Shown: piece after piece, positions 4,984 through 35,366 of the stretch | Layout: each line of letters starts with the position of its first letter | How positions within the stretch are numbered: the stretch's first letter is position 1 | NCBI GenBank assembly: GCA_903875465.1 | Contig: CAIQWB010000092.1 | Span: forward strand, 1 to 35,650 | Reading direction: 5' to 3' | Source of the DNA: an uncultured Verrucomicrobia subdivision 3 bacterium | GTDB lineage: Bacteria; Verrucomicrobiota; Verrucomicrobiia; Limisphaerales; UBA11358 | Length of the DNA: 35,650 nucleotides | Program-made: the position numbers and the translations under genes | Notes under the pieces: model-generated | Told to the model about the DNA's origin: nothing | The model's database searches: none | What the model saw: the letters and a program-made list of their open reading frames with translations, nothing else

Positions 4984-5463
4984 TTATTTGAGCCGGGAGT
5001 AAACTGATGTTTCGTAATCCACTAACACGAGCCGTTTGCCTTTGGCCACCACATGGTGACCCTCGGCCTGCAACCGTGCGGCCCAGGCGGCGGCCCCGCC
5101 GGGATATTTCGGATTGATTTCCCCGCCGTTTTTCAGGGTGCGCCAGTAGGGCGTGATGGGTTTTGCCCCGGCCGCCTCCGCCTCGGCGGCGGCGTGGGCG
5201 GCGATCCAAGAAAAAATCCCGGTGGTCAGGGGACAGGCAAAATTCACGCCGTGCCGGGTGGCGAGGGCGCTGCGCAACTGCTGGATCGTCACCACCCGGC
5301 CTTTGGGCACCTGGCGCATGAGGGCATCCACTTCACACGGGGCGGGAATGACGAAGGGGCCCGCGCCCCAACGCTGGCGCAGCGGGCCGGTGGCCAGCGC
5401 CGTCCGGGGCAACCCCTTGCTATCCGCCAGTTTTTCGCGCCAGGATTTTTTGGGTTTAGCCAC
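4984..5463 (-). CDS. Alkyltransferase-like (MGMT-fold) DNA-binding protein, PYWR variant
   Basis: A protein of about 159 residues related to the DNA-binding domain of O6-alkylguanine-DNA alkyltransferase. The helix-turn-helix-like segment is around MRQVPKGRVVTIQQLRSAL. The active-site loop reads ITPYWRTLKNGG, so the PCHR motif of true methyltransferases is PYWR here (residues 105-108) and the acceptor cysteine is replaced by Tyr106. It therefore cannot act as a suicide methyltransferase. By analogy with ATL proteins (PWHR) it may flag alkylated bases for excision repair, which is inference. The GTG at 5463 is chosen because homologues I recall begin about there (a Lys/Pro-rich stretch then W/FRxKL). 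The upstream ATG at 5598 would overlap ridA by 113 bases. It sits 22 bases after ridA and 5 before rmuC. Confidence 0.75.
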   Translation of the reverse strand: MAKPKKSWREKLADSKGLPRTALATGPLRQRWGAGPFVIPAPCEVDALMRQVPKGRVVTIQQLRSALATRHGVNFACPLTTGIFSWIAAHAAAEAEAAGAKPITPYWRTLKNGGEINPKYPGGAAAWAARLQAEGHHVVAKGKRLVLVDYETSVYSRLK

Positions 5464-5483
5464 GCCCGCAGGCCCTTGCGGGC
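5464..5483 (-). repeat. Perfect 7-bp inverted repeat between ridA and the alkyltransferase-like gene
   Basis: GCCCGCA and TGCGGGC pair perfectly around a 6-base loop. The hairpin fills almost the whole gap between the ridA stop and the chosen GTG start. No T-run follows, so it is not a classic terminator. It could tune translation of the downstream gene or stabilise the ridA message. Confidence 0.5.
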
Positions 5484-5485
5484 GG

Positions 5486-5869
5486 TTAGAAGTGGGCGAC
5501 GACTTCGATTTCGACGCTGGCCGCCTTGGGCAGGCCGGCGACCTGGATGGTGGAGCGGGCGGGGAAATCGCTGGTGAAATACTTCGCGTAAATTTCATTC
5601 ATGCCGGCGAAATTGGCCAGATCCGTGAGGAACACGGTGGATTTCACGACATTGGCAAAGGTCAGGCCCTGGTCTTCCAGAATGGCCTTAACATTTTGCA
5701 ACACGCGATCGGTCTGCACTTTGATGTCGCCCTCCACCAGGTTGCCGGTGGCGGGTTCAATGGGAATCTGCCCGGCGCAGAACAGCAGGTCGCCCACACG
5801 CACGGCGTGGTTATAGGGGCCGACGGCCGTGGGTGACTTCGCGGGTTTGATAATCGTTTTGGTTGCCAT
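5486..5869 (-). CDS. ridA: RidA family reactive imine/enamine deaminase
   Basis: Hydrolyses reactive 2-aminoacrylate and related enamines released by PLP-dependent dehydratases, protecting PLP enzymes in the cytosol. At 127 residues it has the usual length. The family pattern is complete: AVGPYNHAV near the N-terminus, LLFCAGQIP, VVKSTVFLTDLANFAGMNEIYAKYF, and Arg105 in PARSTIQV, the residue that binds the substrate carboxylate in RidA. It is the first gene of the leftward set ridA, alkyltransferase-like, rmuC. The ATG at 5869 fits the family N-terminus. It is divergent from gltB across a 412-base gap. Confidence 0.95.
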   Translation of the reverse strand: MATKTIIKPAKSPTAVGPYNHAVRVGDLLFCAGQIPIEPATGNLVEGDIKVQTDRVLQNVKAILEDQGLTFANVVKSTVFLTDLANFAGMNEIYAKYFTSDFPARSTIQVAGLPKAASVEIEVVAHF

Positions 5870-6281
5870 AAAAGGTGGGGTTATGACTAACGCGTTTGGG
5901 ACCGAAGGTCAAGAACGTCTCGCGCCGAACCGTGCCCGGTGGGTGGTGTGCCCGGCGACCGGGGACAGAATGCCCGCCGTGGGCATATTTGGAGTATTCA
6001 ACGCGGGGGATGCACCGAAACCAGTGCCAGGTGGGCTTGCCTGGGTTGAGGCGGCGGGAACGCCGCGCTCCGACAAGGGGGCGAGTTCCCGGGGGCGGTG
6101 CCCGGGCGGGAGTTGGGGATGCGGGGAAAAAGTTTTCGCCGCATCCACTTTTTCAGCGCGGGCCAACCCTGGGTTAGGCAAATGGGCGAGAATCCAATTT
6201 TTCTAATGAGCGTTGCGGGGGGAGAATTTGATGATTTCTTAAAACAATAGTTGCGCCGACGTGAAAATTAAGTAAAAAATA
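5870..6281. other. Divergent intergenic region between ridA and gltB
   Basis: No gene is supported. Frames of about 90-125 codons occur on both strands, but all are Gly/Arg/Pro-rich and resemble no family. The right third is AT-rich (about 6190-6281) and probably holds the gltB promoter. A short inverted repeat (ATGCCC/GGGCAT) lies at 5970-5986, and a strong palindrome at 6117-6146 is listed separately. Confidence 0.5.
6117..6152 (+). promoter_or_regulatory. 30-bp near-perfect palindrome with T-run upstream of gltB
   Basis: Positions 6117-6146 form GGATGCGG-G-GAAAA, a 2-base centre, then TTTTC-G-CCGCATCC, with one G/G mismatch at 6125/6138. The plus strand continues into ACTTTTTC, so transcripts reading toward gltB would meet a hairpin followed by U residues about 130 bases before the start codon. 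This resembles a terminator or attenuator in the leader. A palindromic protein-binding site is the alternative. Confidence 0.5.
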
Positions 6282-9200
6282 ATGCAACATAAGGCGAAAA
6301 TCGCCGATGCAATGAGCAGCAGCCAAAATAAGCCATCCAAATATTCGGGGCCGACGCAGACAACTGCGCCGGTCAAACAGGGACTTTATGATCCGCAGTT
6401 CGAGCATGACGCCTGCGGGATAGGGTTCGTTGCCCACATGAAGGGCCAGAAGTCGCACCAACTGGTGACCGACGGGCTCCAGATTCTAGTGAATCTGGAC
6501 CATCGCGGGGCCGTGGGTTGCGAACCCAATACAGGCGATGGCGCGGGCATTCTCATTCAGACGCCCCACGAGTTTTTTTTGAAGGTGACGAGCGCGCTGG
6601 GTTTTGCCCTGCCCGCCGTGGGGCAGTATGCCGCGGGCATGTTGTTCATGCCGCAGGATTATGACCAGCGCCAGGCGGTCAAGCAGTCGCTGGCCAAGAT
6701 CATTGCCGACGAAGGTCAGAAACTCCTGGGCTGGCGTGACATTCCGACGGATAATTCTTCGCTGGGCAAAACGGCCCAGGCCGCCGAGCCCTTCATGATG
6801 CAGGTGTTTGTGGGGCGTAATCCCGCCCTGCCGGATGAGGCGGCCTTTGAGCGCAAGCTCTACGTGATTCGCAAGGTGGCCGAACAGCATATTCGCTATG
6901 GCGGCATCATCACGGGAGGCAATTGGTTTTACGTCTCGAGCCTCTCCAGCCGGACGGTGATTTACAAGGGCATGTTGATGCCCGAGCAGGTGGCCCAATA
7001 TTATCCCGATCTGCGGGATGAGGCCATGGTCACAGCCATCGCCCTGGTGCATTCGCGCTTTTCGACGAATACCTTCCCGAGTTGGGATCGGGCGCACCCG
7101 AATCGCTGCATTGCGCACAATGGCGAGATCAACACGCTGCGGGGGAATGTGAACTGGATGAAGGCGCGCCAGGCGCTGTTCACCAGCAAGCTGTTTGGTG
7201 ACGATATCCAAAAGCTGGTGCCGGTGATCAATACCGACGGCAGCGACTCCGCGCAGTTCGATAATTGCGTGGAACTGCTCATGATGGCCGGGCGCGAATT
7301 GCCCCATGCCATGATGATGATGATTCCCGAGCCGTGGGAAAATCACGAGAGCATGGACGTGGACCGCCGGGCCTTTTACGAATTTCATTCCTGCCTCATG
7401 GAACCGTGGGATGGTCCGGCTTCCATGGCGTTCACCAACGGCAAGATGATTGGCGCCTGTTTGGACCGCAATGGTTTGCGGCCCTCGCGCTATTACGTCA
7501 CCAAGGACGACGTGGTCATTATGGCCTCCGAGGCCGGGGTGCTGCCCATCGCGCCGGAACGCGTGGCCATCAAGGGGCGGTTGCAACCGGGCCGCATGTT
7601 CCTGGTGGATTTGGAACAAGGCCGGATCATTGCGGATGAGGAACTGAAAAACCGTTACGCCAAGGCGGAGCCCTACCAAAACTGGTTGGAAACCAACCAT
7701 GTGCTGCTCGGGAAACTGCCTGAACCGCCGCATTATCACAAACCGGACGCGGAAACCATTTTGCAACGGCAGCAGGCATTTGGTTACACCTTTGAAGACT
7801 TGCGCTTCATTGTTGGACCCATGGCGCGGGATGGCATGCAGCCCCTGGGGTCCATGGGCACGGACACGCCGCTGGCGGTGTTGTCCAACAAGCCGCAACT
7901 GCTTTACAATTACTTCAAGCAATTATTCGCGCAGGTCACCAACCCGCCCATCGATCCGATCCGGGAAGAAATCATCACCTCCACCGAAGTGATGGTGGGT
8001 GGCGAGGGCAATATTCTGGAGCCTACGTCGCAAAGCTGCCGGATGATCAAGCTGCATTATCCCATCCTCACCAACGAGGAAATGGAGAAGCTGCGGCACA
8101 TTGACCGGCCCGGGTTTAAATCCATCACCCTGCCGATTCTGTTCCAAGTGTCGGCGGGTGCGGAAGCACTGCAACCGGCCATGGAAAAATTGTTTGCCGC
8201 TGCGGACCATGCGATTCAGGCGGGGGCGAATATTTTAGTGCTGTCGGACCGTGGCATCAGCGCGGCCCTGGCTCCCATCCCGGCCTTGCTGGCGGTGGCG
8301 GGTCTGCACCACCATTTGATTCGCAGCGGCACCCGCACGCAAGTGGGCTTGATCTTGGAATCCGGCGAACCCCGCGAAGTGCATCACTTCTCGGTGTTGA
8401 TTGGTTATGGCTGCACGGCCATTAATCCATATCTGGCCTTTGACACGTTGGACGATCTGATCCGTCAGAAACTGCTGCTGGACATTGATCACAAGACTGC
8501 GGTCAAGAAGTACATCAAGGCGGCCGTCAAGGGCGTGGTCAAGACCATGGCCAAGATGGGTATTTCCACGGTGCAGAGCTATCACGGCGCGCAAATCTTT
8601 GAAGCCGTTGGTCTGGCCACGGACGTGGTACAAAAGTATTTCTCGTGGACGCCGTCGCGCATTCAAGGGATTAGCCTGGAAACCATTGCCGAAGAGGCCC
8701 TCGCCCGGCATAGCCATGCCTTCCCGGACCGCCAGGTCAATGGCGAACTGGATGCGGGCGGCCAGTATCAATGGCGCGATTCCGGTGAGTTTCACCTGTT
8801 TAATCCGCAATCCATTCACAAGTTGCAGCTGGCCTGCCGGTTGGGCAGCTACGCCAAATTCAAGGAATTTGCGGAACTGATTAACAACCAGGCCAAAAAT
8901 CTCTGCACTTTGCGGGGCCTGCTGGATTTCAAATTTGCGGAGCAGCCCATTCCGCTCGAATCCGTCGAGTCCGTGGATTCCATCGTGAAGCGCTTCAAGA
9001 CGGGGGCGATGAGCTACGGCTCGATCAGCAAGGAAGCCCATGAGGCGCTGGCGATTGCCATGAACCGCATCGGTGGCCGTTCCAACACGGGCGAAGGCGG
9101 CGAGGATCCGGCGCGTTATACCTGGACTAATGAGCGCGGGGATTCCAAGAATTCGGCGATCAAGCAGGTCGCTTCCGGCCGGTTTGGCGTGACCAGTCAT

Positions 9201-26376: not shown

Positions 26377-26407
26377 GGGACCCTGGACAAAGGCTGTCCA
26401 GGGTCCC
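26377..26407. promoter_or_regulatory. Perfect 13-bp inverted repeat in the leader of the gp27-like gene
   Basis: GGGACCCTGGACA (26377-26389) and its exact complement (26395-26407) flank a 5-base loop. On the minus strand this places a very stable hairpin about 40 bases before the gp27-like start codon. An A-rich tract (about 26408-26423) follows on the plus strand, which on the minus strand is a T-run before the stem, the wrong side for a terminator of the TAXI transcript. It may be an operator, a translation-control hairpin, or a mobile-element end. Confidence 0.6.
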
Positions 26408-26543: not shown

Positions 26544-27917
26544 TTACTGGGATGGTTTGGGGGAGGCCAGTTCGCGGACGAGGGTGATGTGGCTGCGCAG
26601 GCTGTAGAATTGGTCGGCGAGAAAGGCAGGGACCTTCAGTTTGTTGACTTCACGTTCAATTTCGTCCAGCCGCTTATGCAGGGTTTGCCGGCGGGCGGCA
26701 TCCGGCTCTTTTAAGAGTTCGCGTTCCAGGGCCAGGAGGGCGCGGTACCATCGGTAAATGCGGGTCTGGTTGCGCCAGCGGTAAAGATGGGGAATGCTGC
26801 GGAGGATCGGAATCAAAATCACCACCATGGGGACAAACGCCACGAGAATGCGGCTGGTCATGCTGGCCAGCCAGAAGGGGAGGTGACGATAGAAAAAGCC
26901 GCTGCCGGATTTGTAAAAGCGGGTGGCGTCGTCGCTCAGGGGGATATCGTGTTCCAGGGGGGCGGGGAATTCGCCTTTGTGCTGGAGGAGGCTGGGCTTG
27001 CCGTGCACCTCGCGGGCGGCTTGCAACAGCAGGTCGGACAGGGCCGGGTGCAAAGCAGGCCGGGCGATCAGCTCCACGGTGGGGCCGATGAGGTAAATGT
27101 CGTGGGCCGGAATATTTTTACCAAAATCAATGCCGCCCTGCGGTAATTTGAGGACGCTCAGGTAGCTGAACCGGCGGGTGTAGGCCTCGGCCTGGGGAAA
27201 ATTGAGCAATTGAATATCTGGTGCCAGCAGGAGTTGCCGCATAATGGCAGCGGAGGCGTCTTCACCCATCAAAAACACGGCGTCCACATTCCCGGCCAGC
27301 AGTCCTTGGGCGGCGGTGGGGGCATCCCAATCCAAGAACCGGTTGGTGCCGCCGGACTGGATGCCATTGGCCTTGAGCAGGGTTAAGACGAGGTTGCGGG
27401 TGCCGCTGCCGGGCGGGCCAATGGCCAATCGCCGGCCGGCCATTCCGGCGAGGGTTTCCACGGTCCCGCCGCGATAAAAGACCAGCAGTGGCTGGTAGGC
27501 GACGCTGCCGAGGGAGACGAGCTGGCTGGCGGTTTCATTGGTGACGCCGCCTTGCACAAAACCCACGTCCACCGGGACGTTCCCATTCGCCAGGCGCTGT
27601 AAATTTTCGAGGGAGCCCCGCGAGGGCAGGATTTTCAAATTCACGCCCTGGGCCCGCAGCAAGGCCGCATACTTGCAGGCGTTGGTGTAGAAGAGACTGC
27701 CCTCCGGGCCGCTGGTGATGGTAATGGTGCCCGGAGGCGCGGAATGCACGAAGAAAAACCCGGCACCCACCAACAGGAGGCTGCAAATGGCCAGGACCGC
27801 CACGGCAAGACCGCGACTCAGGCCAAAACTTTCCGTCAGGCTGGTCACCAGATTTGGTTGGGGAATGGTCAGGATTCCCCGGGCGGGCACCGGTTGGGGT
27901 GGCTCAGGCTGGTTCAT
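26544..27917 (-). CDS. TAXI family TRAP-type solute-binding protein, membrane-anchored
   Basis: A 457-residue receptor of the TAXI (TRAP-associated extracytoplasmic immunogenic) family, which normally captures organic acids for a DctQM-type permease. A hydrophobic helix (about 37-58, VAVLAICSLLLVGAGFFFV) follows a Pro-rich cytosolic start. The binding domain (about 62-330) shows ITITSGPEGSLFYTNA and MAGRRLAIGPPGSGTRNL. A second hydrophobic stretch (about 352-372) is followed by a charged helical tail ending at residue 457. The anchor and tail are uncommon for a simple periplasmic receptor. No DctM-like permease gene is next to it. It starts 15 bases after lutC and is the last gene of the lactate set, so its ligand may be lactate or another carboxylate, which is inference. 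Confidence 0.85.
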   Translation of the reverse strand: MNQPEPPQPVPARGILTIPQPNLVTSLTESFGLSRGLAVAVLAICSLLLVGAGFFFVHSAPPGTITITSGPEGSLFYTNACKYAALLRAQGVNLKILPSRGSLENLQRLANGNVPVDVGFVQGGVTNETASQLVSLGSVAYQPLLVFYRGGTVETLAGMAGRRLAIGPPGSGTRNLVLTLLKANGIQSGGTNRFLDWDAPTAAQGLLAGNVDAVFLMGEDASAAIMRQLLLAPDIQLLNFPQAEAYTRRFSYLSVLKLPQGGIDFGKNIPAHDIYLIGPTVELIARPALHPALSDLLLQAAREVHGKPSLLQHKGEFPAPLEHDIPLSDDATRFYKSGSGFFYRHLPFWLASMTSRILVAFVPMVVILIPILRSIPHLYRWRNQTRIYRWYRALLALERELLKEPDAARRQTLHKRLDEIEREVNKLKVPAFLADQFYSLRSHITLVRELASPKPSQ

Positions 27918-27932
27918 GATCCGGGTTGGGGG

Positions 27933-28658
27933 TCACACGCAAAATATCGTGAGTTTCTTGGGGCCGTGGGCACCGAGGACGAGAATGCGTTCGATGTCGC
28001 CGGTGCGGCTGGGGCCGGTAATAAAGCCCATCATGCTGGGAAATTCCGGGGCGTATTTTTGTTTAAGCAACGCAAAGGCGGCGGGCAGGTCGGCCACGAG
28101 TTGTTCGCGGCGGGCGATGACAACATGGTGCGGGGGCAGCACGGACAAGGCCCGGCCGCCGGCACTGCGGCTGGTCACCAGCACGCTGCCGGTTTGGGCG
28201 ATGAGCGCGTCGCACTCGGTCACGCCGACATCGCATGATTCCATGGCCAGCACATCGTAACCTTGATCGGTCCAGCAGACGGGGCGCTGCAAGGCGGCGC
28301 AGGCCTGGCTGGATAATTCCGACTGATGGCTGGCCACCCGCTGCCAGTTTTCGGTGTCGCGTAATTGAACCAAGGCGGCGCTCAACTCAGTCCAATCAGC
28401 GAAGACTTGAAAATGGGCTTTGAGGTCGGCGGCATTTTGGGCGAACAAGGCCAGTTGTTCCGGGAAACTGGGCCCGACCTTGGGGAGCCAGCGACGGGCC
28501 TCGACCGGGGCGGCGGTGGGGGGCGGCACGCGCAGAGAGGGCAAGCTAGGGACGCCCGGGACGGGTAAATGACTCGCCGGGGCGTGGGTGCCCGGGCGGG
28601 GGGCCGGTACTTTCAAGGCCTCGCGGATGCGCGTCAGGATTTTTTCACGTTCGTTCAT
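27933..28658 (-). CDS. lutC: LutC/YkgG family lactate utilization protein
   Basis: One of three proteins of the LutABC iron-sulfur L-lactate dehydrogenase complex. It is 241 residues from ATG 28658, chosen because it forms an ATGA overlap with the lutB stop; ATG 28673 would add five residues and a longer overlap. The N-terminus is NEREKILTRIREAL, then a Pro-rich linker (about 20-60). The core shows the DUF162 motifs DVGVTECDALIAQTGSVLVT and FMTGPSR-like GFITGPSRTGDIER near the C-terminus, ending GAHGPKKL. Its biochemical part in the complex is not well defined. Order lutA, lutB, lutC, TAXI receptor with short spacing shows an operon. Confidence 0.92.
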   Translation of the reverse strand: MNEREKILTRIREALKVPAPRPGTHAPASHLPVPGVPSLPSLRVPPPTAAPVEARRWLPKVGPSFPEQLALFAQNAADLKAHFQVFADWTELSAALVQLRDTENWQRVASHQSELSSQACAALQRPVCWTDQGYDVLAMESCDVGVTECDALIAQTGSVLVTSRSAGGRALSVLPPHHVVIARREQLVADLPAAFALLKQKYAPEFPSMMGFITGPSRTGDIERILVLGAHGPKKLTIFCV

Positions 28659-30049
28659 GGGCGATGCTTCCACCAGTCTTTGAAAGATTGCTGGGGCAGG
28701 GGGGGCAGGTCGCGGGTTTTGGTCCAGGCGCGGGCCGGGTCCAGCGCGGTGCCCAGGACCAGCTTTTGCAACGGCTGGGTCAGCCAGCCAAATTTCTTGG
28801 CGAGGGACCAGAACAGGGGATCGTTGGCAATGATGCCGAACACCTTGTATCCCATTCTTTCCAAAAAAGCGGGTTTTTCGGTGGCGGCGTTGCGGCGGTT
28901 GTGGAGCAGGTGGTGATGCAGGTCAATCTTCACCGGGCAGGCCTCGGTGCAGGCGCCGCAAAGGGAGGAAGCATTGGAGAGGTGCTTCCAATCCTGCAAG
29001 CCGCGCAGGTGCGGGGTGATGACCGAGCCCACAGGGCCGGAATAGGTGGTGCCATAGGTGTGGCCGCCAACATTGCGAAAGATGGGGCAAACATTCAGGC
29101 AGGCCCCGCAGCGGATGCAGTGCAGGGCGTCGCGCTGTTCGGCGTCGGCCAGCAATTCGGTGCGCAAATTATCCAGGAGCACCACATGCCATTCCTCCGG
29201 ACCATCCGCCTCGCCGGGCTGGCGCGGGCCGCCATACATGGTGTTGTAACAGGTGAGCGGCTGGCCTGCCCCGGCGGTGGCGAGCATGGGCAGAAACAAG
29301 GCCAGGTCTTCGAGCTTGGGCAGCACTTTCTCAATGCCAATCAGCGTCACCATGGTTTTGGGCAGGGCGGCGGTGAGGCGGGCGTTGCCTTCATTTTCGG
29401 TGATGCTGATCATGCCGGTTTCGGCGATGGCGAAGTTGCCGCCGGTGAAGCCGATATCGGCCGTAATATATTTATGCCGCATGACCCGGCGGGCCACCAT
29501 GGTGAGCTCCTCGGGGCTGTCCGAGGAAGTGCTGCCCAATTCTTGAGCAAACAACTCGCGGATCTGGCCACGCGTGAGGTGCATGGAGGGAAAGACGATG
29601 TGATAGGGGGCTTCGCCACGGAGCTGGACGATGAATTCGCCCAAGTCAGATTCCACCACCTCAAAGCCCGCCTTTTCCAGCGCCTCGTTGAGGTGGATTT
29701 CCTCGGAGGTCATGGCCTTGGACTTGATGATCGATTTGGCCTGCTTGGCGGCGAAGATGCCCAGAATGATTTCCCGGGCCTGGGTGCCATTACTGGCCCA
29801 ATGCACCTTGGTGCCGCGGGCTTCGAGTTTGGCCACCAGTTCTTCCAAATGCGTGTCGAGGTGGTTGACGGCCTCCCATTTGGTCAGGGCGGCGGCCTGG
29901 CGGGCGGATTCCCAGCTTTGGAAGGCGGCCTTGCGCTTGTCGCGGGCAATTTCGTAATTGCCCAGGGCAGTGCGAATGAATTGCCGCTGGCGGGTGTCGG
30001 CGGTGACGCGGGCGGCGGCTTCCTGAAATTGGGCGACGTTGGTGCTCAT
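28655..30049 (-). CDS. lutB: LutB family iron-sulfur lactate utilization protein
   Basis: Membrane-associated or cytosolic Fe-S subunit of the LutABC lactate oxidation complex. ATG 30049 is chosen because it forms an ATGA overlap with the lutA stop, giving 464 residues, the family length; the longer frame from 30133 is shadow sequence in lutA. An N-terminal DUF162-like domain (about 55-290) includes KSKAMTSEEIHLNEALEKAG and SMHLTRGQIRELF. Two ferredoxin-type motifs follow: CIRCGACLNVCP (about 309-320) and CGACTEACPVKIDLHHHL (about 358-375). Both clusters are intact. The C-terminal tail ends in Trp/Pro-rich residues. It is the central gene of the leftward operon. Confidence 0.95.
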   Translation of the reverse strand: MSTNVAQFQEAAARVTADTRQRQFIRTALGNYEIARDKRKAAFQSWESARQAAALTKWEAVNHLDTHLEELVAKLEARGTKVHWASNGTQAREIILGIFAAKQAKSIIKSKAMTSEEIHLNEALEKAGFEVVESDLGEFIVQLRGEAPYHIVFPSMHLTRGQIRELFAQELGSTSSDSPEELTMVARRVMRHKYITADIGFTGGNFAIAETGMISITENEGNARLTAALPKTMVTLIGIEKVLPKLEDLALFLPMLATAGAGQPLTCYNTMYGGPRQPGEADGPEEWHVVLLDNLRTELLADAEQRDALHCIRCGACLNVCPIFRNVGGHTYGTTYSGPVGSVITPHLRGLQDWKHLSNASSLCGACTEACPVKIDLHHHLLHNRRNAATEKPAFLERMGYKVFGIIANDPLFWSLAKKFGWLTQPLQKLVLGTALDPARAWTKTRDLPPLPQQSFKDWWKHRP

Positions 30050-30762
30050 GCGTGGTTCAAGACCTCGGCAAGATGGAGGGTTTTGAGCGGCTTGCCCTGG
30101 CGCGACAGCAAGCCCTGGATATGCATCAGGCAACTGGAGTCATTGGAGACAATATATTCGGCCTCCGTTTCCAGGGCCGAATTGCATTTGACCTCGCCCA
30201 TGGCGGTGGAGATGGACGGGAATTTGGCAGCGAAGGTGCCCCCGAAGCCGCAGCAGGTCTCGGCCTCTTTCATCTCGATGAGTTCCAGTCCGCGCACTTG
30301 GCCCAGGAGGGCGCGGGGCGATTGTTTGATGCCCAGTTCGCGCAGACCGTGGCACCCATCGTGAAAGGTCACTTTTGCGGGAAAATGTGCGCCAAGATCC
30401 GTCACCCCCAGTTTGCGCACGAGAAACTCCGATAATTCCCAGGTGCGGTCGGCGACCTGTTGGGCCAATGCCGCCTCGGGCTGGCCGGCGAAGAGTTCGG
30501 GATAAAACTTTTTAACCATGGCCCCGCAGGAGCCCGAGCCGATGACGACGGCTTCGGCATCTTTTAACTGTTGCAGCACCTGGCGGGCAATGGGGCGGGC
30601 CTCGTCCCAATAACCGGAGTTAAAAGGGGGCTGGCCGCAGCAGGCGACCTCAGCCGGGCACACCACCCGGTGGCCCAGGCGTTCGAGGATTTGAACCATG
30701 CTGATGCCTGCGCGCGGAAACAGGGCGTCCACAAAACAGGGGACGAACAAGGTGACGGTCAT
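30046..30762 (-). CDS. lutA: LutA family CCG-domain lactate utilization protein
   Basis: The third LutABC subunit, a CCG-type heterodisulfide-reductase-like protein of 238 residues. Two CCG modules are seen: CFVDALFPRAG with VACCGQPPFNSGY (about 9-50), and FHDGCHGLRELG with ETCCGFGGTFAAKFP (about 135-180). These bind non-cubane iron-sulfur clusters in the family. It is the first gene of lutABC-TAXI; lutB starts inside its stop (ATGA). The ATG at 30762 gives MTVTLFVPCFVD, the usual beginning. No GntR-type LutR regulator gene is visible next to it. Confidence 0.95.
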   Translation of the reverse strand: MTVTLFVPCFVDALFPRAGISMVQILERLGHRVVCPAEVACCGQPPFNSGYWDEARPIARQVLQQLKDAEAVVIGSGSCGAMVKKFYPELFAGQPEAALAQQVADRTWELSEFLVRKLGVTDLGAHFPAKVTFHDGCHGLRELGIKQSPRALLGQVRGLELIEMKEAETCCGFGGTFAAKFPSISTAMGEVKCNSALETEAEYIVSNDSSCLMHIQGLLSRQGKPLKTLHLAEVLNHA

Positions 30763-31301: not shown

Positions 31302-34300
31302 ATGAAACCATTCCCCTGTCTTATGGGCAAACTATCCACTGCGGCGACCGCAGCCATGTTGGGCGTCGCCATGCTGGCGGATATGTCCGCCTCGGCAAAT
31401 CCGTTTGCCTCCTGCATTAGCGTCACCAATATTGGCGGCACTAACTTCGTCAATTTCTACCTCAATGAAAGTGGGGGTAGTGTGGTGGTTACTTACGAGG
31501 ACGGCACCACTAATTCCACGTTCGACGGCGTGCTCACGGGTACGAACGTGACGGCTGGTTTGCAATCGTTTTCCATGAATGGCCATACGGGCTACACGAT
31601 TACCTGCCACAAGGTTGGCACTGGTACTCCCTTCCAGATCAATGCCGCCGGGGGGGCCTACTACGCGTGGGGCACGCCGCGCGGGGTGGATGCCAACAAA
31701 AATCCGAAATTCGCCAACACCTTCGGCCGGGTTTATAACGGTGAAGGGTCTTATGATTCGGCCAATCGCCGCTATCAGGGTATTTACATGCTGTCACCAG
31801 ACTTGAGCACCAATTTAGCTCCGCAAGGTGGCACCAATCCAATGGCGGGTGGCGTGTGGTCGCTGGCGGCGGCGTCCGGTTCCGCTTCCGCGCCCTACCA
31901 CATTACGGTCGGTTCGGACAACAATGTTTACGTGGCTGATTATGCCACGGCGGATGCCACCATTTACCAGTTTGACGCCACTTTTTCCCAGTACACCAAT
32001 GTGGTCTTGGGACCGATTGGGGAAAATCAGGGATACAGTGCCGGCACGCACGGTGACCCGACCGGGGTGTACATCACGGGCTCACTGGCCACCAGCAATC
32101 TGGTGGTTTACACCTTTGACCCTGATTTGCCGATTTCCCAATCTGCGGCCCTTTGGTACGTGGATATTTTTGGTAATAATATTTACCACACGGGCAGTGA
32201 GGGCCAGACCACTCCTGGCTTCTTCAATAACGTATTGCAATATCAAATCGGTGCCGGTTTGACGAATACGAACATCTACGGTGGGCTGACGCTCTGGACC
32301 AACGGGCCGGACAAGGGCGTTTGCCTGGGCTTGCCCACCTTTCAGGATTCCCAGATTGGTGACGTGGCCGTGGAAACCAATGGTTACATCATTGCGGAAT
32401 ATCCGCGGGCCAATTTTTCCGACGGTGATATTCAGGTGTACGACACTAATTTCAACTTGATCTACACCTCCTTGCAGCCGAACGGCACCGATCCTTTCAA
32501 TGCCAGCGGCTCCCGCCAATATGGCGGCATTCGCATTTCTCCGGACAATCAGTATATGCTGGGCGTCACCATTGCCAATCAGATCAACGTCTGCTTTTTG
32601 ACCAATGGCATTCCGGATGTGTCGAGCCTGATCCCGATCAACACCGTTTCCGCCACTGGCAACTCCCGTGGTTGCGGGTTTGATGCGGCGGACAATATCA
32701 TTTTTAACAGCTCCGGCGCGGCCAAGCTGGAGTATTATTCCTTGGGCTATACTTCGACGACCATTTATTCCAATGACATCACCGGCACCAACGGTACGTT
32801 CAGCTTTGCCCTGCCGCCAGTGACGGCTTCGCTGGCGATTTCCCAGCCCACGGCTTCCCAGAACTATATTGCCACGGGTGGAACGCCCACTCCGGCGGTC
32901 TTTAACATTTCGCTCAACACTAATTCTCTCGGCGTGCCGGTGACCGTGAATTACTCCCTGACTGGTCCGGCGACCAACGGTGTGAATTTCACCATTAACA
33001 CCGGAACGAATGTTAATGGCGTGATTATCAAAACGAACTCGGTCACTTTCCCGGCGGCGGCCTACCCTGGAGGTGGCAACTGGACGGCGACGGTCACCGT
33101 CACCCCGACAGCTTTGCCGCTCAGCGGTCCGACCTTTACGGAAAGCCTGATTCTTCGTGGCGGCACGACTTACATTCCGGCGGAGCCGGTCAGTGGCTAC
33201 CTCACCATCTTAAACACCGGCCCGCAACAGCTCGCCTTGAGTGCGGTAACCGCCGGTAACACCATGAACCGGGCCGTGGCGAACGACTACGCCGAATTCA
33301 TCATAACCCGATATGGTGACCTGAGCGTTCCGCAATACACTGTGACCAATTTTAATTATGGTGGTTCGGCGGTGTTCGGCGTTGACTACACGGCCGGTGC
33401 GCAAACGCTGACGACGACGCCGATTGATGGCAGTCCATTTATCACGGTTCCCAGCGGGGCTTCGAGCTTTACGAACATTGTGGGCAATCCGGTTCCCCGG
33501 ACCCCTTCCAGTGTGGCCTCGGGTAACGTTACCATCGCCCTCAGCCTGACCAATGCGCTCACGGGTACCAATCTTACGAGTCAGGAAGGGGTGGCTTACT
33601 CGGTTATTCCGGCGACGGTGATCCTGACAGAGTTGGATAATTCCACCAGCTCGGAAGTGGTGCTCTGGTCCAATCCGCTTACTAATGCGGCGGACAGTTC
33701 CAACTGGACACTGACCTTTGCTTCCACGGCGTTGAATGCCACGCAAACAGTGCTGCCGGTGGTGGTTCCCAATTATTCCGGCTTCTCACCGGATGCCATC
33801 GGGCAGGGTGGCACAAACGATTATCAGGTGACCTTCGGCAAGCCGGTCGCCGCGGATAACATCCCGGTTTCCCCGACCATGGCAGCCAAAGGGTGGACGA
33901 CGGCTTTGAAGGCCACCGTGGAAAATAACCAGGCCGCCCCGGCGGGCGTGAACGTATTTCCGCAGGGGGTTAACTTTGTTGGAAATTATGCCTTCCGCTT
34001 CAGCATGTACTTGCAGCTCTTTGACCGGGCTGTGGCCAATCCCTATTATTCGGGAACCGTCGACCGCCAATACGCGCTGTTTGGCATCGATGCCAAGGGG
34101 ACCAATTGCAGCTGGCGGCCAACCGCCAACGTGGTCCCGGGGACCGGCAGTGGCATGACGAATTCAGACGGCATTTGGTTTGCCATTGACGCCGGCATTG
34201 ATGCGCAGACCCCTGCTGACTTTGATGCCTTCACCACCCCGCCCTTGCCCAATTCCGGTCCCACTCCGCCCGGGAGCACGTCGATTGCGGACTTCGTGAG

Positions 34301-35366
34301 CAACACTGGTGAGGCCAATAGCGGCATCTTCAAGAATCCGCCGTTCGGCGGGGTGATTTCACGCTACGGCACGTTTGGCGGCGAACCCGTTAATCAGTGG
34401 GTGGATGTCAGTGTGGAAACCTCTTCCCAGACGAACATCTCGCTCTACATGAATCACGCTTTGGTCTTGAGCACCTTTGCGATCCCCACGGCGTACTCCA
34501 ATGGGGTGGTCATGCTGGGTTATGAAAATCCGCTGCCCAACGTCAGTGATGGCAGTGCGTTTGTTTATTATTCCAATGCGCGGGTGGTTGAGTTGTCACC
34601 CTTTATCACCAGCCAGCCCGTGGGTAAAATTATCACGGCCGGGCAAAGTGTGACCTTTAACGCGGCCGCCACTTATGCCACCGCGCCCCTAACCAACACT
34701 TGGTATTTGGGCTATACGAATCCGGGCGTGGCCTTGCAGACCACTTCTGTGGCGGGCACCAACATGACCGACACGCTGACCCTGAACAACCTCCTCAGCG
34801 GCACCAATTACTTTGCGGTGTTCGCGGACGCAGCCGGTTCGGTGACCAGTTTGCTGGCCAGTGTTGAAGTCATCACCGGACCCACCAACATCACTGCTCC
34901 GGCGGGTTCCACCGTGACCTTCTCGCTGACCGCTTCAGGGCAGTCCGCCCCGACCTTGTACCATTGGAAATACAATGGGGTTAACGTCAACAACAGCACG
35001 ACTTACGCGGGTGCCACCAATGCCATTCTGACCATCACCAATGTGCTGGTATCTGGCACCTACTCCTGCGGGGTGACCAATGCTTTCGGCTCGGTCACGC
35101 CGTCCGCCATTCTCACAGTCGTGCCGCCGACCCCGCCGGTCATCGCCTCCACGACGGTGGTGGGTACCAACATGGTGTTCGCTTTCACCTCCGCCGATCC
35201 GGTGGGTGCGACCAATAAGTTCAAGTTGCTCAGTTCGCCCGTGGTTAATGGGCCTTACACCACCAATAACTCGGCCATCGTTACGGGCACGGCGGGTAGC
35301 TATCAAATTGTGGTTCCCAAAACCACAAATGCCACCATGTTCTACCGGCTGGAAGACGTAAACTAA
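31302..35366 (+). CDS. Very large secreted beta-rich modular protein
   Basis: A 1354-residue exported protein of unknown function, rich in Thr, Asn, Ser and Gly. A signal peptide covers about residues 1-31 (LSTAATAAMLGVAMLADMSASA). Residues about 85-490 look like a beta-propeller (repeated phrases such as NNVYVADYA and GGIRISPDNQYMLGV). About 500-790 holds Calx-beta-like or fibronectin-like repeats. About 800-1105 resembles a LamG/concanavalin-like domain. Two Ig-like domains (about 1110-1265) carry paired W and C/Y positions such as LYHWKYNGVNV and GTYSCGVTNAFGSV. The C-terminal ~85 residues end NATMFYRLEDVN, like the FYRL-ending tail of many Verrucomicrobia surface proteins. Domain names are fold impressions only. 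No PEP-CTERM or LPXTG signal is seen. It is followed by a strong terminator and is probably transcribed alone. Confidence 0.75.
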   Translation: MKPFPCLMGKLSTAATAAMLGVAMLADMSASANPFASCISVTNIGGTNFVNFYLNESGGSVVVTYEDGTTNSTFDGVLTGTNVTAGLQSFSMNGHTGYTITCHKVGTGTPFQINAAGGAYYAWGTPRGVDANKNPKFANTFGRVYNGEGSYDSANRRYQGIYMLSPDLSTNLAPQGGTNPMAGGVWSLAAASGSASAPYHITVGSDNNVYVADYATADATIYQFDATFSQYTNVVLGPIGENQGYSAGTHGDPTGVYITGSLATSNLVVYTFDPDLPISQSAALWYVDIFGNNIYHTGSEGQTTPGFFNNVLQYQIGAGLTNTNIYGGLTLWTNGPDKGVCLGLPTFQDSQIGDVAVETNGYIIAEYPRANFSDGDIQVYDTNFNLIYTSLQPNGTDPFNASGSRQYGGIRISPDNQYMLGVTIANQINVCFLTNGIPDVSSLIPINTVSATGNSRGCGFDAADNIIFNSSGAAKLEYYSLGYTSTTIYSNDITGTNGTFSFALPPVTASLAISQPTASQNYIATGGTPTPAVFNISLNTNSLGVPVTVNYSLTGPATNGVNFTINTGTNVNGVIIKTNSVTFPAAAYPGGGNWTATVTVTPTALPLSGPTFTESLILRGGTTYIPAEPVSGYLTILNTGPQQLALSAVTAGNTMNRAVANDYAEFIITRYGDLSVPQYTVTNFNYGGSAVFGVDYTAGAQTLTTTPIDGSPFITVPSGASSFTNIVGNPVPRTPSSVASGNVTIALSLTNALTGTNLTSQEGVAYSVIPATVILTELDNSTSSEVVLWSNPLTNAADSSNWTLTFASTALNATQTVLPVVVPNYSGFSPDAIGQGGTNDYQVTFGKPVAADNIPVSPTMAAKGWTTALKATVENNQAAPAGVNVFPQGVNFVGNYAFRFSMYLQLFDRAVANPYYSGTVDRQYALFGIDAKGTNCSWRPTANVVPGTGSGMTNSDGIWFAIDAGIDAQTPADFDAFTTPPLPNSGPTPPGSTSIADFVSNTGEANSGIFKNPPFGGVISRYGTFGGEPVNQWVDVSVETSSQTNISLYMNHALVLSTFAIPTAYSNGVVMLGYENPLPNVSDGSAFVYYSNARVVELSPFITSQPVGKIITAGQSVTFNAAATYATAPLTNTWYLGYTNPGVALQTTSVAGTNMTDTLTLNNLLSGTNYFAVFADAAGSVTSLLASVEVITGPTNITAPAGSTVTFSLTASGQSAPTLYHWKYNGVNVNNSTTYAGATNAILTITNVLVSGTYSCGVTNAFGSVTPSAILTVVPPTPPVIASTTVVGTNMVFAFTSADPVGATNKFKLLSSPVVNGPYTTNNSAIVTGTAGSYQIVVPKTTNATMFYRLEDVN

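Follow-up and report, generated by a model that had tools for sequence, protein, structure and literature searches.

A conserved family of two-helix TAXI receptors, one member of which follows the lutABC operon of an uncultured verrucomicrobial bacterium

We analyzed a 35,650-nucleotide stretch of DNA (the window) from an uncultured Verrucomicrobia subdivision 3 bacterium (contig CAIQWB010000092.1 of assembly GCA_903875465.1), in which genes for lactate oxidation, lutABC, are followed by a gene for a membrane-anchored receptor with the fold of TAXI proteins, the binding proteins known from TAXI-type tripartite ATP-independent periplasmic (TRAP) transporters. On the minus strand the order is lutA, lutB, lutC and then, 15 bases on, the receptor gene; a preliminary description made from the sequence had noted this spacing and the lack of a permease alongside, and both observations hold, as there is no permease gene in the cluster. 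The features, in window coordinates, are as follows.

26544..27917, minus strand: TAXI-fold two-helix receptor (P0001), 457 amino acids, ATG start (open reading frame [ORF], Pfam NMT1_3, model, structure match)
27744..27815, minus strand: transmembrane helix 1, the N-terminal anchor, residues 35-58 (hydropathy and model)
26898..27734, minus strand: TAXI ligand-binding domain, predicted periplasmic, residues 62-340 (model; VIA-align match over residues 61-338)
26790..26852, minus strand: transmembrane helix 2, residues 356-376, within model helix 348-403 (hydropathy, model, conservation)
26547..26789, minus strand: helical tail, predicted cytosolic, residues 377-457 (model, conservation)
27918..27932, minus strand: gap of 15 bases from the lutC stop to the TAXI start (ORFs)
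27933..28673, minus strand: lutC, LUD domain (PF02589)
28655..30052, minus strand: lutB, LUD and 4Fe-4S domains, LutB_C (TIGR00273; PF11870)
30046..30762, minus strand: lutA, two CCG stretches (PF02754)

The lut operon is ordinary. By Pfam and NCBIfam it comprises, in one cluster, a LutA with CCG stretches, a LutB with LUD and Fe4S domains and a LutC with a LUD domain, and LutB scores 459.4 bits against TIGR00273 (LutB/LldF; curated cut-off 444.8). A scan for promoters and terminators returned 11 terminator-like sites where 7.0 were expected, none of them in the gap before the receptor gene, and we draw nothing from it.

The receptor matches Pfam family NMT1_3 (PF16868) with 46.9 bits, passing the gathering cut-off of 27, and scores 57.5 bits against the NCBI model TIGR02122 (TAXI family TRAP substrate-binding protein), below its curated cut-off of 84.35. 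Its two most hydrophobic 19-residue windows are residues 39-57 and 357-375. An AlphaFold2 model made from a 53-sequence family alignment (mean pLDDT 82.1) has a helix at residues 35-58, the TAXI domain at about 62-340, a 56-residue helix (348-403) that runs helix 2 into the tail, and two further tail helices at 407-425 and 431-451. The N-terminal anchor, second hydrophobic stretch and charged, cytosolic-looking tail of the preliminary description are thus borne out by hydropathy and by the model. The closest solved structures are all TAXI proteins, matching within residues 57-341 (most rows 60-341; VIA-align): VcGluP of Vibrio cholerae (9ibo, 8s4j; Z 26.4, root-mean-square deviation 2.9-3.0 over 271 residues), a protein of Ehrlichia (4ddd; Z 26.3) and one of Thermus thermophilus (8u79 and 1us4; Z 25.6 and 25.1). 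The domain therefore has the two-lobed TAXI fold. In a PDB profile search, the tail matched a lectin chain (E 0.00019, without any single stretch passing) and, more weakly, coiled coils, all of which we took as chance.

The flank of a membrane helix that is positively charged faces the cytosol (the positive-inside rule). Helix 2 is hydrophobic in all 53 aligned family members, and the 25 residues after it contain on average 6 Lys/Arg and 1.8 Asp/Glu, so the tail is predicted to be cytosolic and the TAXI domain periplasmic. Hydropathy detects helix 1 in 48 of the 53, the ranges of the other five rows starting late. The predicted topology and the conservation described below agree with a periplasmic sensor domain and an inside tail.

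We collected relatives of the receptor by a genome scan with one peptide pattern, keeping the best 80 of 180 confirmed matches as named loci, so remote members are under-sampled. Among these best 80 the family occurs in Verrucomicrobiota, Pseudomonadota, Myxococcota, Thermodesulfobacteriota, Lentisphaerota and one Phycisphaerales bin. Within the class, 34 of 286 genomes have a match, which in 22 of them is a single match running from residue 43 or before to residue 445 or beyond; within the genus the receptor is present in 11 of 49 genomes. The window receptor pairs in a tree with that of the sister genome G043 (100/100), among other Verrucomicrobiota sequences, and Pseudomonadota, Myxococcota and Thermodesulfobacteriota each fall on more than one branch; because many of the records are bins, this does not prove horizontal transfer. 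Two genomes have second, diverged copies with 33% and 32% identity (G272:C19 and G195:C88, respectively), indicating paralogues in the family, and receptor copies at L025/L070 (TAG, genome G047) and L076 contain one in-frame stop, which may mark a pseudogene or an assembly error.

The family is also found on plasmids. By tblastn, 19 plasmid records matched, and in 18 of them one place spans 80% or more of the query. The hosts are Caballeronia, Burkholderia, Pseudomonas, Cupriavidus and Roseovarius; the features listed there are named TAXI family substrate-binding proteins. In four annotated plasmid neighborhoods the gene table (PLSDB, which is incomplete) lists neither a TRAP membrane subunit nor GltS within 9 kb, and a fifth neighborhood that we fetched has no genes listed. 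On the Pseudomonas plasmid, an SLC13 permease is found some 7 kb away from the family member. The module of helix 2 plus tail, used alone as a query, hit 18 plasmid records, all among the 19 matched by the whole protein, and had no match in phage records. Of 288 genomes from the phylum, 16 contain the module, one copy apiece; the open frames around it span 446-512 amino acids, with G062 (770) and G405 (203) as exceptions.

To compare the parts of the protein we used an alignment (A2) that draws on 52 of the 80 named loci. L070 and L076 were left out for their in-frame stop, and the other 26 omitted are mostly close relatives (Caballeronia, Burkholderia, Myxococcaceae), together with L096, L109 and the partial L122. 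All 53 members match PF16868 at E ≤ 0.001. Mean pairwise identity is 0.27 in the N-terminal tail (66 pairs only), 0.21 in helix 1, 0.52 in the TAXI domain, 0.50 in helix 2 and 0.46 in the tail. Seven residues are the same in every one of the 53 sequences: A351, R356, P363, P370, Y391, E398 and Y438. Of these, R356, P363 and P370 lie in helix 2 and Y391, E398 and Y438 in the tail. Helix 2 and the tail are thus kept nearly as well as the binding domain and helix 1 is not, so they seem to be more than an anchor: an anchor alone would not need such conservation, and a transducer or a docking element would.

Among the closest solved TAXI structures, VcGluP and the Thermus protein have bound glutamate. 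We mapped the VcGluP pocket onto the receptor by eye on a HMMER alignment of the family. In VcGluP, Y45 and Q93 are the residues whose loss cost most affinity, according to the part of the source available (PMC11574862). By this mapping Q93 is kept as Q122 and Y45 becomes F76; S75 corresponds to S102, E125 to Q142, Y200 to L216 and M201 to M217. Across the 53 family members, position 76 is occupied by F (44), Y (6) or L (3), position 102 by S in 52 and position 122 by Q in 49. Position 142 is more variable (Q 24, E 18, V 11), position 216 is mostly L, and position 217 is M in 32. The receptor likely has a functional pocket that accepts a small carboxylate or an amino acid, and the kept pocket residues point to a glutamate-like ligand as more likely than lactate; they give no indication of lactate as the ligand.

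According to the accessible part of one source, TAXI-TRAP systems have always been found with a fused DctQM permease (PMC5812351), and because of this a receptor family mostly without DctM is a real departure. Another departure is already described: the portion seen of PMC12344293 reports TAXI proteins linked with GltS as well as TAXI-GltS fusions, and mentions the existence of orphan TRAP receptors. We searched for such partners in the window's own genome (G000; 96% complete and 2.3% contaminated, so that about 4% may be missing). The only PF16868 match at E ≤ 0.001 in this genome is the window receptor gene. There is no DctM match (PF06808), whereas 7 of 14 control genomes are positive, and there is also no match to GltS (PF03616), TctA or Lactate_perm (PF02652). 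We then took the 31 Verrucomicrobiota genomes that contain the family (11 of the genus and 20 more of the class, some only 66-86% complete). DctM is undetected at E ≤ 0.001 in 20 of them; among the 25 genomes with completeness of 90% or more and contamination of 5% or less, it is undetected in 17. Where a strong DctM match exists (eight genomes), it is always on a different contig from the receptor, and the gene adjoining DctM encodes a DctP receptor in all six of these genomes that we tested. GltS is absent from 29 of the 31 genomes, the window's own included, and present in 2 of 14 control genomes. We therefore rejected a TRAP permease, GltS and, on the absence of a match in the window's own genome, TctA as partners. 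The preliminary description's proposal of a receptor for a distant permease accordingly fails in its TRAP sense, and the family, although labelled as TRAP receptors in databases, very probably has no part in TRAP transport.

We next asked whether any gene recurs beside the receptor. Our gene caller takes the longest ORFs, and in G+C-rich DNA shadow ORFs replace true genes, so recurrent neighbors are under-counted; the TAXI ORF itself was missed at 12 of 109 loci, leaving 97 for the cluster count, and shadow ORFs remain in a recount of the 80 named loci with the receptor fixed. All neighbor clusters common to at least eight loci reflect Burkholderiaceae synteny. Outside that family there is one six-locus cluster (L058, L060, L087, L124, L125, L133), at varying positions, which includes a receiver/histidine-kinase protein of L060; with Pfam run on L060 only, we take it as domain-level similarity. 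This L060 protein (L060:2865-6971) is a hybrid histidine kinase of 1369 amino acids with four receiver stretches and GAF, PAS and Hpt domains, and its ORF overlaps the receptor ORF by 4 bases, which we regard as a lead for signaling and no more. We scanned with Pfam 82 of the 98 first-neighbor ORFs of named loci outside Burkholderiaceae (we omitted 16, namely lutC of L056, near-duplicates and some ORFs of extreme length, long or short) and found no family in more than three of them (Response_reg in 3, the next in 2). Polytopic membrane proteins account for 12 of 250 neighboring ORFs, over 69 of the 80 named loci. Five of these examined with Pfam comprise three transporters of three families, one PspC-domain protein and one without a match; the permeases, each at a single locus, are an L-lactate permease (L077), a nucleoside transporter (L122) and a sugar transporter (L062, where the ORF used in the first-neighbor scan is antisense to the transporter gene). 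Surroundings differ even within one genus: upstream of the receptor lies a sulfatase gene in L023, a homologue of it in L022 and a polyphosphate kinase gene in L019. We therefore rejected a constant neighbor gene. The architecture of N-terminal tail, helix 1, TAXI venus-flytrap domain, helix 2 and charged helical tail recurs across phyla with no constant neighbor, and the receptors form a conserved family, mostly stand-alone, in several phyla. A literature search, with subscription journals mostly outside its reach, found no description of a two-helix or orphan TAXI family, so the family is apparently undescribed so far.

The preliminary description had also suggested a lactate sensor, and had named the lack of a repeated lut-TAXI association as one outcome that would refute its reading. 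The order lutABC-TAXI is repeated in the sister genome G043 and at none of the other loci fetched, which comes close to that outcome. lutB is present in 39 of the 49 genus genomes; its share is 9 of 11 among receptor-bearing genomes and 30 of 38 among the rest (Fisher P = 1), so we rejected co-occurrence of the two. Among the nine genomes with both, lutB and the receptor are adjacent only in the window and G043; in the other seven they are on different contigs. The 12 other lut loci that we fetched all have lutABC and all lack the receptor. Conversely, tblastn of 110 receptor loci, representing 95 distinct receptor sequences, found lut near the receptor only in L018 and L056, both from the same G043 contig. 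This amounts to linkage in 1 of 95 other distinct loci within the flanks fetched; flanks of 3 kb on each side were available at 62 of the 110 loci, and lut genes farther out or past contig ends would be missed. Lut linkage as a general trait was therefore rejected. The place of the receptor behind lutABC looks like a local arrangement and not a rule; it is probably specific to the lineage and would at most put the receptor under lut control.

Several observations concern lactate metabolism around these loci. In L077, an Opitutia bin, a full L-lactate permease gene (5146-6750, minus strand; PF02652, E 2e-154) is divergent from the receptor gene (6977-8329, plus strand), an adjacency seen at no other of the 110 loci; it keeps the lactate idea alive. 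In G043 the lutABC-receptor cluster runs on, with a 4-base overlap, into a gene for an FAD-binding oxidoreductase (L018:5695-6858, minus strand) that does not follow the window receptor. Pfam searches of lut neighbors in 2 of the 12 fetched lut loci, L173 and L176 (L176:1261-4785), showed that in these relatives lutABC adjoins a FGGY sugar kinase gene, and L173 also has bacterial microcompartment (BMC) shell, PduL-like and RnfC-like genes near lut. The window's own genome has three microcompartment shell genes on a contig other than the window's. According to the part of PMC8857213 available, microcompartments of this kind break down fucose and rhamnose, and the pathway figure names L-lactate. 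The lut genes of the genus may therefore burn lactate made internally, from deoxysugar breakdown in a microcompartment, and in that case a periplasmic lactate receptor would not be needed.

Two features of the window lie outside the cluster. Downstream of the receptor gene, adjoining an A-rich stretch, a perfect inverted repeat of 13 bases was found by eye (GGGACCCTGGACA / TGTCCAGGGTCCC; 26377-26407). Divergent from lutA, an ORF on the plus strand (31302-35366) encodes a large, secreted-looking protein with an Ig domain, and G043 has an ORF of similar start at the matching place (L018:11597).

Our best reading, to which we give an even chance, is that the protein is a stand-alone membrane-spanning receptor, not a TRAP subunit, which passes ligand binding via helix 2 to a cytosolic partner. 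In such a mechanism a small carboxylate or amino acid would close the periplasmic TAXI domain, the closure movement would pass through helix 2 to the tail, and the tail would then act on a partner, in the cytosol or the membrane, whose gene lies elsewhere. The broader proposal, that the family is a receptor class of at least four phyla in which a TAXI protein, labelled in databases as a TRAP subunit, has left transport, acquired two helices and signals through its conserved tail, we put forward tentatively, at somewhat short of even probability. Several points weigh against signaling. It is deduced from conservation. The tail folded alone gives a low-confidence model (pLDDT 65.3), and no output domain is recognized in it, its best Pfam match (E 0.0099) reaching 16.4 bits where the cut-off is 26. 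Where the glutamate pocket has Tyr the receptor has Phe, and three more pocket positions differ or vary. DctM does match in 11 of the 31 family-bearing genomes, 9 of them above the curated cut-off and 8 strongly, and the absence of DctM, GltS, TctA and Lactate_perm leaves room for an unrelated permease. The varying neighbors would also suit a structural or membrane assembly factor that keeps the TAXI fold without binding a ligand, an explanation that we think improbable, because S102, Q122 and an aromatic residue at position 76 (50 of 53) are conserved as in a working pocket.

The main rival is that the protein serves a non-TRAP secondary transporter encoded elsewhere, as proposed for BP0403 with GltS, helix 2 and the tail docking the permease. 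The linked and fused TAXI-GltS proteins set a precedent, the conserved helix 2 could serve for docking, and permeases are next door at L077, L122 and L062. Against this, GltS itself is nearly always missing, few neighbors are polytopic and the transporters among them belong to three differing families, and a recruiter of a permease has no obvious need of a conserved cytosolic hairpin; we judge this rival unlikely, if less so than the others. That the receptor belongs to a TRAP permease from another part of the genome is close to refuted by the missing DctM genes and by the DctP receptors beside those that exist, even though TAXI proteins are known from systems with fused DctQM. Going by its title, Roden et al. 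2023 (Biol Chem) deals with membrane-anchored TAXI proteins of secondary transporters, and that work, which would fit such a distant permease, may touch on the receptor family. A lactate receptor or sensor specific to the lutABC operon can claim the 15-base gap, the same gene order in G043, the permease of L077 and the lack of a PF02652 match in the window's own genome, which leaves its route of lactate uptake open. The rarity of lut linkage, the independence of lutB and receptor, and the sugar kinase and microcompartment genes beside lut in relatives, which point to intracellular lactate, make it doubtful, and we give it only a slight chance.

Binding proteins are routinely annotated as parts of transporters, and the ligands and partners of TAXI proteins are poorly known in general. 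The TAXI-GltS systems indicate that the fold has probably changed partner before. The receptor family lets one test whether a binding protein has become a receptor, or else whether it belongs to an unknown class of transporter.

Compared with known LutABC lactate oxidation operons, the window has lutA, lutB and lutC in the same order but with a TAXI gene added, an arrangement found beside lut in two genus genomes and not at the 12 other lut loci. The proteins of Roden et al. 2023 are, by the title, likewise membrane-anchored, but they serve transporters, whereas no TRAP permease was found for the window receptor. The binding proteins of TAXI-TRAP systems (VcGluP, TtGluBP) share its periplasmic fold (Z 25.1-26.4), the key Gln and an aromatic residue at the position of the key Tyr; in the parts of the sources available they are described as proteins of 300-350 amino acids that occur with fused DctQM (PMC12344293, PMC5812351). 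The window receptor differs from them in its two membrane helices, its 80-residue inside tail and the lack of a DctM match in its genome. The TAXI-GltS protein of Bordetella (BP0403) resembles it in being a TAXI protein without a TRAP permease, enlarged and attached to the membrane. As the available part of PMC12344293 describes, BP0403 adjoins gltS and is predicted to be a lipoprotein, carrying additional N-terminal and helical domains; in the genome of the window receptor gltS is absent, and the extra part of the protein is instead C-terminal, a membrane helix continued by a tail.

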